DNA of 37,367 nt. It comes from Stagnimonas sp. (GTDB taxonomy: Bacteria > Pseudomonadota > Gammaproteobacteria > Nevskiales > Nevskiaceae). This document shows, piece by piece, positions 9,747 to 30,520 of this stretch. The first letter of the stretch is position 1. The number at the start of each line of letters is the position of its first letter. The DNA lies in NCBI GenBank assembly GCA_030652575.1, contig JAUSQI010000028.1, positions 1-37,367 of the forward strand. The letters are read 5' to 3'. The position numbers were made by a program, and so were the translations under genes. The notes under the pieces were generated by a model, which saw nothing but the letters and a program-made list of their open reading frames with translations, was not told the origin of the DNA and did not search any database.

Positions 9747-12653
9747 ATGAACAAGAAACCATTCACGTCCGGCGCGTGCGCCGCTTTGCTGTGCGCAATG
9801 CTGGCTACGCCGCAGTACGCGGTGGCGCAAGCGGCCGCCACCACGGAGTCCGCCGACCCGATCAAGCTGAAAACGGTGGAAGTCACCGGCTCGCGCATCA
9901 AGCGGGCCGAAGGCGACTCACCCGTGCTGGTGCTGACCTCGGCCGACCTGCAGCAAAGCGGCATCGCCTCGGTGGGCGACATCCTGCAACGGTTGTCGGT
10001 GAGCGGCTCCTCGCTCAACACCAAGTTCAACTCCGCCGGCAACTTCGGCTTCCCGGCCGATGGCGGCGGCGTGGGTTCAGGCTCCACCACCATCTCGCTG
10101 CGCAACCTGGGCGCGAAGCGCGTGCTGGTGCTGGTGGATGGCCTGCGCTGGGTCAACGAATCTTCCGCTTCCGGCGTCTCGGCGGCGGTGGATCTCAATA
10201 CCATCCCGGCCAGTGCGATCGAGCGGATCGAAATCCTCACCGACGGTGCTTCGTCCCTGTATGGCTCCGACGCCATCGGCGGCGTCATCAACGTCATCAC
10301 CAAGAAAAGCCAGAAAGGCGGACTCGCGCACGTCTATTACGGCGACTACGCCACCGGCGACGGCAAGACCCACACCGGCAACATCTCGATGGGCGGCAAG
10401 ACCGATCGCGGCGATTACTTCGTTGATCTGAGCCACTACGAGCAGCGCGAGATCAGCTCGGCCGATTTCGCCAATGCCAGCACGCCCGTGCCCGGCACCG
10501 GTGTGGCGTTCGGCAGCTCGGCCATCCCCACCGGGCGTTTCGTGTTTTTCCCGCAGGGCAACAACACCAACGGCGGCCTTTGCCCCTTGGCGGATACCGA
10601 CGGCGACGGCGTGGGCGACACCGCGCGCTGCAACGTCACACCCAACGGCACGGCCAACCCGCAGACCTTCCCCGGCAATTTCCATCAGTTCACGGATGCC
10701 GATCGCTTCAACTTCGCACCGTTCAACTATCTGCTCACGCCGTCGCGCCGCACGGCGCTGTTCGCACAGAGCCGCATGAATGTCACCGACAACATCCGCT
10801 GGTCGATCAAGGGGCTTTATCAGGCGCGCAACTCGGTCAATCAGGCGGCACCGGAGCCGATCTTCCTGGGCCCCGGCGCAGGTTCCGGCGCGTTTGCAGA
10901 CACCGTGGGCGTGGACGTCAGCAATCCCTTCAATCCACTCGGCTACTCGCTCGACGCCAACGACAACCTGGTGCTGATCGGCCGCCGTCCGGTGGAAGGC
11001 GGGCCACGCGTGTTCAGCCAGAAGGTCGACACCTATTACCTCTCGACCGGCTTCAACGGTGACTTCAATCTGTTCGATCGCCTGCTGTCGTGGGATGCCA
11101 ACTATGCGAGTAGCGTCAATTCGGCGTCGCAGAACATCACCGGCACCTACAACATCCGTCGCATCGCCACCGCACTCGGGCCTGTGGCCGCTTGTGTCGC
11201 ACCCTGCGTGCCGCTCAACATCTTCGGCGGCCCCGGCACCATCACCCAGGACCAGCTCAACTACATCCAGTTCATCGAGAAAGACGACAGCCGCCAGAGC
11301 CTGGATCTGTTCACGGCGAACCTGTCGGGCTCGTTGTTCGCGATGCCCGCCGGCATGCTGGACTTCGCCACCGGCTACGAGCACCGCAAGCTGGCGGGTT
11401 CCTACTCGCCGGATTCCATCGTCGTCGCAGGCGATTCCAACGGCGTGCCCTCGCTGCCCACGCGCGGTCAGTATTCGGTGGACGAGGTGTATGTGGAACT
11501 CGGCGTGCCGGTGCTTTCGGGCCTGCGCTATTTCGACAAGTTCGATCTCAGCATCGCCAGCCGCTACTCGGACTACACCACTTTCGGCAGCACCATCAAG
11601 AGCAAGTTCGGCGCACGCTGGCAGCCGGTTGATCGGCATCTGATCCTGCGTGGCAATTACGCGCAGGGCTTCAGAGCGCCTTCCGTCGGTGAGGCGTTCG
11701 GCTCGCCGGCGCGTTTCGACGCCACCATCACCGACCCCTGCTCGGGTGCGACGGACCCTCAGACCATCAGCAACTGCCAGGCGCTGGGGGTGGCGGCACC
11801 GGCCAGCTTCGAGCAGGCCAATACCCAGATTGCCGTGCGTACCGGCGGCAATCCCGCCCTGCGTGCCGAAACGGCCAAGAGCACCACGCTGGGTGTTCTC
11901 TACAGCCCGGCCTGGGCAGAAAAAACCGCCTGGGCGGATCGCGTCGATTTCGACGTCACCTACTACAAGCACAAGGTCAACAACGCCATCCAGGCACCCG
12001 ATGCGCAAACCCAGCTGGATCGCTGTGTGGCGAGCGGCGACCCGACTTCGTCGTTCTGCACCGGCATCACGCGCGGCACCTCGGGCGATATCAACGGCTT
12101 CAACAACACCCTGCGCAACCTGGGCAGCATCGACACCGAGGGCTACGACCTGAGCGTGACCTGGGATGGCCCCAAGCTGCCCTACGGCAACTTCGGCGCG
12201 AACTGGCAGACGACGTATGTCGAAAACTTCAAGTCCGTCGCCAACGACACTGGCCTCGCCGAACCGCGCGGCGTGGGCAAGGAAGTGGCCGACAGCGGCA
12301 TCCCGCGCTGGCGCTCGACCTTCCGTCTCAACTGGAAGTTGCAGGCCTACTCGGCCAGCTACGCCCTGCGCTACATCTCGGCCCTCACCGAGAAATGCGG
12401 CGATGCGGTGGACTTCGACGTCTGCGGCAACCAGGCTGCGGGCACCAACAAGCTGGATGCGGTCTTCTACAGCGACGTGCAGGCCAGCTACACGCTGCCC
12501 ACCGCGCTCAAGACCACGGTGAGCGCGGGCATCAACAACCTGCTCGACAAGGACCCGCCCACTTGCGTCAGCTGCTCGCTCAACGGCTACGATGCCTCGG
12601 TGTATGACGTGCCGGGCCGCTTTGGCTATGTGGAGGCGACCTTCCGCTTCTGA
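9747..12653 (+). CDS. TonB-dependent outer-membrane receptor
   Basis: A 968-aa outer-membrane receptor. It has a signal peptide (residues 1 to about 28, ending AVAQA), a TonB-box-like segment KTVEVTGSR (about 44-52), a plug domain containing the typical [16 protein letters not shown] and [19 protein letters not shown], and a long beta-barrel ending in an aromatic residue (VEATFRF). An acidic loop TDGDGVGD flanked by cysteines (about residues 283-291) resembles a calcium-binding loop. It imports an unknown ligand, energised by TonB-ExbBD. The start has GGGAG seven to eight bases upstream. A strong terminator follows at 12671. Confidence 0.93.
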
Positions 12654-20957: not shown

Positions 20958-20985
20958 GCCCACTCAGTCAGTACGGCTGGAAATG

Positions 20986-21021
20986 TCCGCAGGCCTAGTC
21001 ATGGGCTTGCGGATTTTTTTT
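20986..21021 (+). terminator. Rho-independent terminator after fadE
   Basis: The arms TCCGCAGGCC and GGGCTTGCGGA form a 10-bp stem with one G-T pair, followed by eight T residues. It lies 28 bp after the fadE stop and insulates the regulator gene at 21064 from fadE transcription. Confidence 0.9.
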
Positions 21022-21062
21022 AATCACTTGATGATTACTTTCTAATTAAATGGATTAGAAAG
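21021..21062. promoter_or_regulatory. Two adjacent inverted repeats over the regulator promoter
   Basis: IR1 is TAATCA/TGATTA with a 5-bp spacer (21021-21037). IR2 begins at the very next base, with perfect 9-bp arms CTTTCTAAT/ATTAGAAAG and a 7-bp spacer (21038-21062), ending one base before the regulator's ATG. The left arm of IR2 contains TCTAAT (21041-21046), five of six matches to the -10 consensus, and the right arm covers the AGAAAG that would serve as ribosome site. Both repeats share the TAAT/ATTA core. The simplest reading is autoregulation by the winged-helix protein encoded immediately downstream; an RNA hairpin masking the ribosome site is the alternative. Confidence 0.65.
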
Positions 21063-21063
21063 A

Positions 21064-22119
21064 ATGGCACGCTCCGCCTTTCCCAAGCTCGATGACACCA
21101 TTTTGCGGCTGCTGCCCGACCACCCAAAAGATTTGGTGAGCGCCGTTGCCGCAAAAATGGGCGCAAGCCGTCCAACCGTGTCGACGGCCATCCGCAGGCT
21201 TGAAGCATTAGGCCTGCTGCAATCCGAGGGGACGACGCGAAAAATATACAGCCCCACCACCTTCAAATGGCACGGCAGGATCGACAGTGCATTGGACGAA
21301 TCTCTCGTCTGGCAAAAACACTTCTCAGCACAGCTGGCCAAGCTGCCGGAGAACCAGCGGGACATCCTGCACTACGGATTAACAGAGATGCTCAACAACG
21401 TACGCGACCACTCCGAGGGCAAGCGTGCAGACATCATGCTTTCGATGCGTCCTGACGCTGTGGCTTTCAGCATCGCCGACGATGGCGAGGGCATTTTCAG
21501 GCGCATCGCCCGCCTTCAGAAACTCCCCGATGAAAAGCTGGCGCTGCTGGAACTGGCCAAGGGCAAACTCACCACCGACCCCAAGAATCACTCCGGTGAA
21601 GGCATTTTCTTCAGTTCGCGGGTTTTCGATGAGTTCACGATTTACTCCAGCGAATTGCTGTTCACACATGATGAAACACAGGACGCACTTCACGATGCCG
21701 AGCTGCCGGAACCACTGAAAAAGAATGACAAGGGCACCGTCGTATCAATGCTTCTTGCACGGGAGAGCAAACGAACACTCAGAGATGTGTTCGACCGATA
21801 CGCTGCGCCTGCGGAGTTCACTTTCAGCAAGACACTGGTACCGCTGCGGCTGGCACGACTCGGCAACGAAAATCTTCTCTCGCGTTCGCAGGCCAAGCGA
21901 GCTCTCGCTCGCGTAGATCAATTCAAGGTTGTGGTCTTCGATTTCACCGAAGTGCCCCTGATCGGCCAAGGCTTTGCCGATGAAATCTTCCGTGTTTTTG
22001 CCAATGCCCACCCTGATATCGAGCTGATCCCGGCGCATTTCAACGACGAGGTGCGCCGCATGCTGCTGCATGTCGGAGTCACCCAGAAGCAACTCCAAAC
22101 CAAAACCGAACTGACATGA
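21064..22119 (+). CDS. Winged-helix, GHKL ATPase, STAS-like DUF4325 regulator
   Basis: A 351-aa protein with three recognisable domains. Residues 8-65 form a winged helix (AAKMGASRPTVSTAIRRL is the HTH). Residues about 95-230 are a histidine-kinase-like ATPase: N-box LTEMLNNVRDHSEG (E108, N111), G1 motif DDGEG (D139 to G143) and G2 motif HSGEG (176-180). Residues about 255-340 match the STAS-like DUF4325 family (SRSQAKRAL, VVVFDFTEVPLIGQGFADEIF). There is no kinase phospho-acceptor region and no membrane segment. SpoIIAB/SpoIIAA-like partner switching fused to a DNA-binding domain is inferred; no function is known to me. Its stop overlaps the next start (ATGA). Base composition is less GC-rich than its neighbours. 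Confidence 0.85.
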   Translation: MARSAFPKLDDTILRLLPDHPKDLVSAVAAKMGASRPTVSTAIRRLEALGLLQSEGTTRKIYSPTTFKWHGRIDSALDESLVWQKHFSAQLAKLPENQRDILHYGLTEMLNNVRDHSEGKRADIMLSMRPDAVAFSIADDGEGIFRRIARLQKLPDEKLALLELAKGKLTTDPKNHSGEGIFFSSRVFDEFTIYSSELLFTHDETQDALHDAELPEPLKKNDKGTVVSMLLARESKRTLRDVFDRYAAPAEFTFSKTLVPLRLARLGNENLLSRSQAKRALARVDQFKVVVFDFTEVPLIGQGFADEIFRVFANAHPDIELIPAHFNDEVRRMLLHVGVTQKQLQTKTELT

Positions 22120-26745: not shown

Positions 26746-27321
26746 GTGCTCCAACCGGAGCACGCGACTGCCGAGAAGGCATCTCTGGCTGCAACACCTT
26801 GCGTTCTGGTCGACGCCCTCAACGTCGCCTACTGGAGCGGCAATCCGCCCTCGCTGCGCCTGCCGCTGGCGTTGATGACGCAGCTGCTGGCCGATGGGCA
26901 TCGTGCTCTGATGGTGTTCGATGCCAGCGCCCCCCATCAGCTGAAGCATGAGCACGATTTGTATCGGCAACTCCTGCAGCACTCCAACCATTGCATCGAA
27001 ACGCCTTCGGGGCGCTCTGCCGATGGCGTGCTGCTGCGGCTCGCCCGATTGAATGCCGCCTGTATCGTCAGCCGCGATCACTATCGCGACCATCGCCGCC
27101 GCTACCGCAAGCTGATCGACGACGCCAGCCGCCTGCATGCGGGCTGGGTGCGCGATGGCTGTATCCATGTGCCGTCGCTGGCGCTCAGCGCACCGCTCGC
27201 GGCAAGCACCGAAGCCGCCTTTCAGCAGCTGTGCCGCCAATTGCAGTCCCTGCCTTCGATCAACAGTGCGGCGGCCGTTGCATCCGGCATCCGTCTGCCC
27301 TCAGCCGAAGCGGTGACCTGA
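26746..27321 (+). CDS. NYN/PIN ribonuclease resembling Zc3h12a (Regnase)
   Basis: A 191-aa cytoplasmic protein. Residues 18-145 align by eye with the Zc3h12a-like NYN domain. VLVDALNVAY gives D23 and N26, GHRALMVFDAS contains D59, and TPSGRSADGVLLRLA gives D93. IVSRDHYRD gives D110 and D114. These match the acidic metal-binding residues of Regnase-1 (DGSN, DDRF, SNDxxRD), so metal-dependent RNA cleavage is expected. No zinc finger follows; the C-terminal 45 residues are low in motif content. The start is GTG 26746, with no clear Shine-Dalgarno sequence, four bases after the upstream stop. The stop shares one base with the next ATG. Confidence 0.8.
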   Translation: MLQPEHATAEKASLAATPCVLVDALNVAYWSGNPPSLRLPLALMTQLLADGHRALMVFDASAPHQLKHEHDLYRQLLQHSNHCIETPSGRSADGVLLRLARLNAACIVSRDHYRDHRRRYRKLIDDASRLHAGWVRDGCIHVPSLALSAPLAASTEAAFQQLCRQLQSLPSINSAAAVASGIRLPSAEAVT

Positions 27322-29259: not shown

Positions 29260-30520
29260 AAAAAATGCGGCTCACACCCCGTAACGCATTGGCGTGCGTA
29301 AGCGATTACGGTGAGAGCTACCTAAATAAAAACTAGTGTGCTGAGATATTGGGACTCAGCGCGGAGAACTAATGAAGAGTCTTAGCTCCTATACGAAAAA
29401 TGCTGTCGTTGCCATTCGACGTTGGTGCTTAACGCATCGAAAATTCGCGATCGCGATCAAGGCACTCATACAGGGTCTACCACCGGCTCTTTGGGCCTAC
29501 GCGCTCATTAAGTTTTCCATCGCTCTTCCCTTTCAACAGGATGCCCATGATTTTTTCGAGGCGCATAAGTGGCTACCGCTTTGCGTTCTTATATGGCCTC
29601 TTGTTTCCACCGTGTTATTCGAAGCATTGGCCGATTTCACGTCGGCGCTGGCAACATCTGGGGACGCTGGAAGCGCTGAGCTATTGGCGCTAGTGACCGC
29701 TATCGATGACATCGTAGGACGCAAGCTAAATCGCTTTGGAGAGTATGCACGGGAACTTCGTGATGGAAGAAAATCCAAAAGCGTTTTTGCCGATATCACT
29801 CAACCTCAACGGCAAATTGAAGCCTTAGTCCAAAGCCTATGGCAGATGCTCAGCACTTTGACGCAGGACAGAACACTTAAAGTTGTTCTTGCGTGCATGG
29901 AGAAGGACCTTCCTGTCCGCTGGTATTGCCATTTCCCAAATGACGCATTGCCTTCAAGTGACCTACTAAAAGCAGAGGCGGCAAAAAAAACTTTCTTCGC
30001 GCACTGTTCCAAAGATAAGCGCCCTGTGCTGATTGAAGACATCGCTCAATACATTGAATTGCGAAGAAAGAAGAAAGCGAAGGGCAAAAAGAACAAACAA
30101 GCGACTTATATCGTTGGTAACGCCAGCACTGATTCGACAGGGTCGATAATTGCTTATCCGATAATTAACCACCATCTATCGGAGCTTCCATTTGTCTTAT
30201 CCGTGAAATCAGATACGAATACCATCAACGCTGCGTTCAAAGAAAAGCACAAGTTCATCGTCGAAGCATTCATCAAGCGGTTGGTGTTGGAACATAACTT
30301 GCTCTCAATCAAGAACGGGGTCACCTATGACTACGAAGCACCTTCTCAGCCAGCAAGCTGATTTAGTTGGCGCCACTACTCCAGAAGACCTGCTTCGGCA
30401 GTTCGAATCTCAGTTGATGCACAACTACAAAGACATTTTTAGTGAACCGTTTCCGACAAAGTCGGTTAGCGAGTGGCTTCAACTACTCAATTCCAAAAAC
30501 ATCAAAACTCAAAAAATGCG
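29260..30520. repeat. Ten-bp direct repeats flanking the accessory cassette
   Basis: AAAAAATGCG occurs at 29260-29269, left of the two-gene cassette, and at 30511-30520, inside its last codons. The feature spans both copies. They could mark the ends of an inserted segment or be chance in AT-rich DNA. Confidence 0.25.
29372..30361 (+). CDS. Two-helix membrane protein with GAF-like domain, unknown
   Basis: A 329-aa protein of no family I can name. Two hydrophobic segments (about 30-52 and 67-87) are followed by a helix-rich linker. Then comes a cytoplasmic domain (about 140-318) whose strand pattern resembles a GAF fold: RWYCHFPND, KRPVLIEDIAQYI, a lysine-rich loop RRKKKAKGKKNK, GSIIAYPIINHHLSELPFVLSVKSD, then a C-terminal helix. 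A membrane-tethered sensor is inferred. ATG 29372 has GGAGAA six to seven bases upstream. Composition is much more AT-rich than neighbours, indicating recent transfer. The last 35 bases overlap the next gene. No confident promoter was found in 29232-29371, only a CGTAA/TTACG inverted repeat. Confidence 0.75.
   Translation: MKSLSSYTKNAVVAIRRWCLTHRKFAIAIKALIQGLPPALWAYALIKFSIALPFQQDAHDFFEAHKWLPLCVLIWPLVSTVLFEALADFTSALATSGDAGSAELLALVTAIDDIVGRKLNRFGEYARELRDGRKSKSVFADITQPQRQIEALVQSLWQMLSTLTQDRTLKVVLACMEKDLPVRWYCHFPNDALPSSDLLKAEAAKKTFFAHCSKDKRPVLIEDIAQYIELRRKKKAKGKKNKQATYIVGNASTDSTGSIIAYPIINHHLSELPFVLSVKSDTNTINAAFKEKHKFIVEAFIKRLVLEHNLLSIKNGVTYDYEAPSQPAS

Follow-up and report, generated by a model that had tools for sequence, protein, structure and literature searches.

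A family of single-chain winged-helix, GHKL and STAS-like proteins with repeats upstream of its own genes

Partner switching is understood as an exchange between separate proteins that controls a sigma factor, and SpoIIAB and SpoIIAA are such separate proteins in sporulation. Since 2026 partner switching has also been known to control immune operons (PMC13373217). According to the portion of that report drawn on here (Chambers et al., EMBO J 2026, PMC13373217), CapK (HTH-STAS-GHKL) phosphorylates CapS (STAS-wHTH) upon ssDNA, which is contacted by W68 of CapK, and CapS, through its wHTH, acts as a repressor of its own promoter and of the operon that follows, with palindromes that overlap predicted promoters. 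capK is followed by capS in 443/443 cases and an immune operon comes next in 348/443. The phosphosites given in the same portion are Ser54 of CapS and Ser48 of VapS; VapKSC is a three-gene operon with a PIN toxin, and both CapK/CapS and VapKSC belong to immunity.

The gene described here lies in a window of 37,367 nucleotides (the whole stretch of DNA that was analysed) from Stagnimonas sp. and encodes a wHTH, a SpoIIAB-like GHKL domain and a STAS-like domain in one polypeptide (Table 1). Measured against the described part of CapK/CapS, the family has the same kinds of domains (HTH, STAS and GHKL, SpoIIAB- and SpoIIAA-like) and mostly has repeats at its own promoter that would fit a CapS-like wHTH repressor, but its order is wHTH-GHKL-STAS in a single chain rather than HTH-STAS-GHKL with a separate CapS, it has neither a capS-like neighbour nor an associated operon, and Gln replaces the usual serine. 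By analogy, the family would work like CapK/CapS in outline; we do not class it as a member. With VapKSC, as described there, it has the domain superfamily in common, but it has no PIN toxin gene, is a single chain and possesses a wHTH. The predicted folds of the GHKL and STAS-like domains resemble those of SpoIIAB-SpoIIAA and RsbW-RsbV, whereas the single polypeptide, the added DNA-binding domain and the missing phosphoacceptor serine set the family apart. The original prediction that no function is known for this architecture holds for the single-chain form, of which no characterised orthologue was found in the open-licence literature (in which few subscription journals are covered), but it has to be qualified by CapK/CapS, where domains of these types are divided between two proteins (PMC13373217, in the portion drawn on). 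DUF4325, the Pfam family of the C-terminal domain, is mentioned in PMC5982333 and PMC7924643, while no mention of PF14213 was found in the open-licence literature; the Pfam name carries no function.

Table 1. Coordinates of the features of the locus in the window
Feature	Position	Strand	Basis
Terminator-like hairpin and T-tract 3' of the acyl-CoA dehydrogenase gene	20985..21014	+	
Weak direct half-site copy TTTTTTAAT, 7/9, 22 bp 5' of the left arm	21016..21024	+	By eye
Perfect inverted repeat CTTTCTAAT-N7-ATTAGAAAG, putative operator of the gene	21038..21062	.	Unique in the genome at <=3 mismatches
CDS, wHTH - SpoIIAB-like GHKL - STAS-like (DUF4325) protein, 351 aa	21064..22119	+	ATG start
Winged helix-turn-helix, residues 13-55, MarR_2	21100..21228	+	Pfam; helices and strands of the model
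GHKL ATPase/kinase domain, about residues 65-235, nearest fold SpoIIAB	21256..21768	+	Pfam; structure alignment
N box E108..N112 (E, N, N invariant)	21385..21399	+	Family alignment
G1 box D139-x-G141-x-G143	21478..21492	+	Family alignment
G2 box H176-x-G178-x-G180	21589..21603	+	Family alignment
STAS-like domain, about residues 250-340 (Pfam match 277-330)	21811..22083	+	Pfam; domain model
Codon CAA, Gln302, in the column with Ser in 9/13 stand-alone DUF4325 proteins	21967..21969	+	
ATGA, stop codon overlapping the start codon of the CoA-transferase family III gene	22116..22119	+	

Domain architecture and the serine column

The original prediction placed a wHTH, a GHKL domain and a STAS-like DUF4325 domain in one polypeptide and staked itself on the GHKL and DUF4325 profiles. 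Both were matched above their Pfam cut-offs (HATPase_c_2 at residues 88-193, 31.0 bits, cut-off 27.4; DUF4325/PF14213, 41.1 bits, cut-off 23), as was MarR_2, barely (27.7 bits, cut-off 27). The main family alignment contains 97 of 100 sequences (L050, L066 and L092 are left out), and a further alignment, A5, holds 86 of the 97. Twenty-five columns are invariant across the 97 sequences, including E108, N111, N112, D139, G141, G143, T170, H176, G178, G180, S275 and R279, and W83, a candidate counterpart of the W68 with which CapK contacts ssDNA, is present in 94/97. The N, G1 and G2 boxes are thus intact throughout the alignment, as had been proposed for the window protein.

A whole-chain AlphaFold2 model built on the 97 family members had a mean pLDDT of 89.5 and a pTM of 0.82. 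The wHTH of the model consists of helices at residues 7-16, 24-32 and 36-48 and strands at 52-55 and 61-64. In structural alignments, residues 65-231 matched SpoIIAB best (Z 14.3, 2.0 A, 127 residues, 22% identity), with RsbW second (Z 12.3), and Foldseek gave an E of 5.1e-5 for the GHKL part. The C-terminal domain, predicted alone with a pLDDT of 81.9, was closest to SpoIIAA at a modest Z of 8.6 (2.8 A, 90 residues, 12% identity); below SpoIIAA it aligned mostly to further STAS-bearing chains, and Foldseek returned nothing with E < 0.001 for this domain. Because of the fold matches to SpoIIAB and SpoIIAA, the chain is read as wHTH, SpoIIAB-like and SpoIIAA-like. In the predicted structure, the middle domain is a SpoIIAB-like GHKL domain and the C-terminus has a STAS fold with a weaker match, and the resemblance to partner-switching proteins seen in the original prediction is borne out by these nearest folds.

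The column of residue 302 differs between the fused family and stand-alone DUF4325 domains. It holds Gln in 94/97 fused proteins (P in two, R in one), whereas 13 stand-alone domains have Ser in nine, Q in two, T in one and P in one; in the column that follows, Ser is found in 10/13 stand-alone domains and 5/97 fused proteins. The comparison used the first 40 of the 97 fused rows and the 13 stand-alone domains, some of them trimmed to an internal Met, with L168 and others left out. A phosphorylatable Ser/Thr is therefore absent at the canonical site as placed by the alignment with the 13 stand-alone DUF4325 domains. Since the usual serine is replaced by Gln in 94/97, classical partner switching through phosphorylation of the protein's own STAS domain is unlikely.

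The Glu and Asn of SpoIIAB that correspond to E108 and N112 have catalytic roles. The invariance of these two residues and of the G boxes in all 97 sequences would suit an active kinase of the CapK type, which would phosphorylate either another Ser/Thr, e.g. the invariant Ser275 (97/97) or Ser273 (96/97) in the STAS-like domain of its own subunit or of an adjacent one, or a partner protein encoded elsewhere, and so release DNA. That CapK phosphorylates CapS (PMC13373217, portion drawn on) also points this way. The loss of serine from both columns and the lack of any linked partner gene argue against it, and we consider it unlikely.

Among the stand-alone DUF4325 genes, those of L152 and L155 lie beside a PIN gene, and L147, L160 and L162 are also counted among VapKSC-like loci. 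Genes upstream of stand-alone DUF4325 had a GHKL match in three of the five tested, one of them below the cut-off. The L155 locus is called only VapKSC-like because its upstream gene has no Pfam match at 0.001.

Repeats upstream of the gene and the search for further sites

Upstream regions of 98 homologues were compared (identical regions merged, 101 to 98), with other ORFs of >=200 aa from the same loci serving as control genes (803 or 801, duplicates kept). A direct repeat of >=9/10 letters occurs within 85 nt upstream of 67/98 homologues, as opposed to 6.5% of 803 control genes and 3.6% in 1000 shuffles under the same criterion, and the repeats are spaced by 21 or 22 bp in 59 of these 67. 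Two or more copies were found for 73/98 homologues vs 71/801 control genes, and three or more for 44/98 vs 4/801; 25/98 homologues have no array at threshold. An iteron or partition site, which the 21-22 bp spacing had suggested, was set aside, as the arrays lie directly 5' of the gene and often over promoter-like hexamers.

The repeat unit varies by clade (GTTGACAAT, TCCTTTAAGAAA, CTTTACAAT and others), and the recognition helices vary too. Operator classes were assigned from patterns drawn up after the sequences had been viewed, with 13/97 placed in a class 'other'. Operator similarity correlates with that of the helix at 0.34, of the GHKL domain at 0.38 and of the STAS domain at 0.35. As partial correlations, 0.18 remains for the helix once the GHKL domain is accounted for (permutation p 0.001, by a test that ignores the tree), and 0.25 for the GHKL domain once the helix is. 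The covariation of operator and helix thus reflects largely common ancestry.

A promoter-like pair of hexamers (>=9/12) accompanies 52/98 homologues vs 42/801 control genes and 10.6% of same-region shuffles; wherever TTGACA is itself the repeated word, this count runs too high. Of the 42 loci that have an array and a hexamer pair, 32 have both hexamers lying over array copies. With a -35-like and a -10-like hexamer inside units like GTTGACAAT or CTTTACAAT and a period of 21-22 bp, the promoter spacer is therefore 17-18 bp. Arrays that often cover such hexamers, and a nearest predicted fold that is an anti-sigma factor, might also be accommodated by a DNA-tethered anti-sigma factor, whose SpoIIAB-like domain would bind sigma at the promoter held by the winged helix. 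We regard this as very improbable, given that the internal STAS domain would probably compete and that occlusion of RNA polymerase by the winged helix would already account for repression.

The window copy is atypical for the family in that it has a palindrome instead of a direct-repeat array. The original prediction had pointed to repeats at 21021-21062; its inverted component was found as a perfect repeat with 9-bp arms that ends 1 nt before the ATG, whereas the direct copy proved weak (7/9). This TTTTTTAAT copy falls below the array threshold and may be merely the T-tract of the terminator. The half-sites of the congener G001 are identical to those of the window and in the same position, and its variant of the palindrome, with a 10-bp gap, has one exact occurrence and one more elsewhere with two mismatches. 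Neither the window copy nor the congener has an array or a promoter-like site at the thresholds used, and a sigma-70-like promoter scan of the window copy found none.

Many autoregulated regulators have regulons. The array at the family's own promoter could likewise be just autoregulation with the true targets elsewhere, as the wHTH architecture would allow, and genomes were searched for further sites of the array or palindromic type, the types to which the following counts refer. Exact array patterns were matched in 14/19 and 8/19 genomes (22/38), and all 34 exact matches (26 + 8) fall in the gene's own promoter; in the other 16/38 genomes the exact test is powerless, the pattern being too strict to match even the own array. 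With two mismatches allowed in 17 genomes, 15/34 matches lay away from the own promoter, as assigned from contig positions, vs 19 for the reversed control, so that there is no excess over the control. The palindrome CTTTCTAAT-N7-ATTAGAAAG occurs once in the genome of the window, even at three mismatches. The half-site class shifts within the family, which would force entire regulons to move. A dispersed regulon therefore seems to us improbable, its one array-like candidate being a second site in G074 at two mismatches per pair.

That genome, which is AT-rich, holds 10 of the 15 off-site matches (5 for the reversed control). The site itself (L173:1475-1526, on contig 32) consists of the words GTTGCCAA, GTGGACAA and TTTGACAA, 22 bp apart, which form two overlapping two-mismatch pairs in a stretch of 35% GC that contains no family gene and does not sit at an evident promoter. 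In view of the five reversed-control hits in the same genome, it is probably due to chance, a second operator site being the less likely reading.

Spread, neighbours and mobility of the family

Among 84,980 species genomes scanned, >=472 relatives were confirmed, the best 80 of which were studied, and homologues are also carried by 18 viral-contig loci, some of them near-duplicates. The set of loci took in relatives from the window's own GTDB family as well. Homologous ORFs of 334-417 aa were found in 97/101 loci; in L008, L010, L020 and L036 the gene caller picked an overlapping ORF. Fourteen close pairs gave dN/dS values of 0.03-0.36, so the gene is kept by purifying selection. Seven phyla are named among the family records, and phylum labels change seven times on the 100-row tree (24 rows unlabelled), starred branches forcing >=4 changes for Pseudomonadota. 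As many of the records are metagenome bins, these changes hint at transfer, short of proof. Of 299 genomes drawn evenly from the phylum of the window, 26 have DUF4325; the single-chain form occurs in six of the 26, among them that of the window.

The window gene lies between genes for an acyl-CoA dehydrogenase upstream and a family III CoA-transferase downstream. Its GC content is 55.7% (GC3 65.9%), and its two neighbours have 63.9% (85.3%) and 68.5% (87.7%). Within the window's GTDB family the gene is present in 3/58 genomes, the third of which, G008, is widely separated from the others in the tree. In G001 an ortholog of 60% identity occupies the same place and has the same ATGA overlap with the CoA-transferase gene. 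In the congener G004 the site is empty, the acyl-CoA dehydrogenase and CoA-transferase genes adjoining behind a terminator-like hairpin with no regulator gene between them, and in G002 the CoA-transferase gene is in a different context. Early gain before a split followed by loss, or repeated transfer, would both fit this patchy presence. The transfer that had been suspected from an AT-richer composition thus accords with the lower GC content and with the sporadic presence and empty site. An acyl-CoA dehydrogenase gene as a common neighbour was rejected; those near the family gene in L028 and L086 (about 42% identity) were put down to chance.

The start of the CoA-transferase gene overlaps the stop of the regulator gene at window 22116-22119 and at L003:2556-2559, and in G004 the gene has a leader of its own. 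Insertion of the regulator may have put the CoA-transferase gene under a new promoter. Two further ORFs of the window were noted: a 329-aa ORF at 29372-30361 (+) in the window's lowest-GC stretch (about 52%), with hydrophobic parts by eye and nothing in Pfam at 0.01, and a 191-aa ORF at 26746-27321 (+) with a match to a Zc3h12a-like NYN ribonuclease domain (47.9 bits).

The neighbour loci are 3-21 kb long, so flanks are partly short; L075 was skipped. ORF clustering of 101 loci gave no non-self family in more than nine loci; the commonest, in nine, is an ABC-transporter ATPase by sequence reading and stands at scattered positions. As there is no conserved neighbour of any kind, there is no linked sigma gene. 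No effector gene is linked to the family either, and the protein has no recognisable effector domain. In 46/75 genome loci the following gene runs on the opposite strand, and a same-strand gene within 30 nt follows in just 10. This arrangement, the lack of a conserved neighbour family and the presence of both flanking genes without the regulator in G004 make a local regulator of the adjacent gene, which in the window would be the overlapping CoA-transferase gene, scarcely credible to us, despite the ATGA overlap in the window and G001. With no neighbour widely conserved (<=9/101) and an array only at the own promoter where detectable, the neighbourhood agrees with the self-contained switch that had been proposed.

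Whether the family lies in defence islands, as had been suggested, was examined with PADLOC. The window protein gave weak matches confined to the wHTH (best E 7e-4) and no whole-protein defence match. The neighbour scan covered 142/365 near genes and 141/195 far genes, and among the top 25 families given the near genes include type I methyltransferase and specificity families with 2-4 members each and mad3 in five, while far genes include mad3 in three, mad8 in two and single others. A defence island was set aside, the counts for near genes against far genes being too weak to claim one, and the association is not clear in this neighbour sample. Insertion at a tRNA or in an island was likewise rejected, ARAGORN having called five tRNAs in four of 60 of the 80 genome loci, none of them within 1 kb. 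Upstream of the L020 homologue, at about 9880-9905, a stretch resembles a tRNA 3' end (T-arm) by eye; ARAGORN calls none there.

Copies of one cassette (about 1.4-1.5 kb, 96-98% identity) were observed at L014:339-1760, L015:4243-5734 and L017:9796-11287, with short matches only in the flanks. Two of the records are from Methylococcaceae and one is an unclassified gammaproteobacterial bin; L017, an array-type homologue, is from Methylotuvimicrobium buryatense, and L014 has just 509 bp upstream. No obvious terminal inverted repeat was seen by eye in alignments of the cassette boundaries. A defined mobile element was rejected, as near-identical copies in differing surroundings are confined to these three loci. 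In the Chlorobiaceae loci more stretches around the gene are common to the loci, which therefore represent the same region with insertions or deletions. Further close pairs, e.g. L027/L044 and L012/L033, have kilobases of common flank, so in the many pairs of this kind the gene was inherited in place.

These observations bear on the possibility that the gene is one-gene cargo that protects its carrier, its product both sensing the threat and switching on and effecting phage exclusion or abortive infection, and that it is carried by prophages and moves between bacteria. Such a role would be in keeping with the 18 viral-contig loci, 15 of which yielded 104 flanking genes, matches to integrase, endolysin, spanin, baseplate, tail sheath and terminase among them, and with the absence of partner genes, the sporadic presence with an empty site, and the cassette in three records. 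The related CapK/CapS and VapKSC belong to immunity, according to the portion of PMC13373217 drawn on here. It is countered by the weak PADLOC matches confined to the wHTH, the lack of a clear defence island and of a recognisable effector domain, the many pairs inherited in place, and the window protein's lack of a match at 1e-5 in 50,697 phage and 72,556 plasmid records. We treat it as possible, though doubtful.

Proposed switch and its meaning

We lean slightly towards a transcriptional switch that works alone, as one chain, and represses the promoter of its own gene, much as CapS, a related STAS-wHTH protein, does with its promoter (PMC13373217); the GHKL and STAS domains would set the hold on DNA, and canonical STAS phosphorylation would play no part. 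Against this reading stand the 25/98 homologues with no array, the window copy and its congener with a palindrome alone, and the lack of a linked effector, which leaves no evident benefit for a switch that controls just itself. The N-terminal winged helix would bind the repeats in its own promoter, usually 2-4 direct half-sites and in the window a palindrome. With half-sites about two helical turns apart, assembly along one face of the DNA would be cooperative. The SpoIIAB-like GHKL and SpoIIAA-like STAS domains would decide whether the protein holds or assembles on DNA. As we infer from the Gln in place of serine, switching would come about when a nucleotide or ligand binds and the domains dock, or through phosphorylation at another site. 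A stress or phage signal would release the protein and thereby raise its own level; DNA damage or phages are perhaps that signal, with ssDNA a candidate by analogy with CapK only. In the window, the CoA-transferase gene that overlaps the stop codon may also be under control.

More tentatively, and as a broader conjecture that we consider possible but rather doubtful, the family could be a widespread one-gene module that unites sensor, kinase-type switch, repressor and effector in one molecule. In each lineage a private array would be both promoter and main genomic target, the STAS domain would be locked in a non-phosphorylatable state and the switch run by ATP state and oligomer assembly, and the module would spread alone, partly in prophages, as a response to DNA damage or phages.

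In this family, found in hundreds of bacteria, a single chain unites the two partners with a DNA-binding domain and lacks the serine that is usually phosphorylated as well as any linked target. This raises the question of what use there is in a switch that seemingly regulates mainly itself. The family offers compact pairs of promoter and protein with changing specificity and, if it is phage-related cargo, it would represent a one-gene class that neighbourhood-based defence searches would miss.
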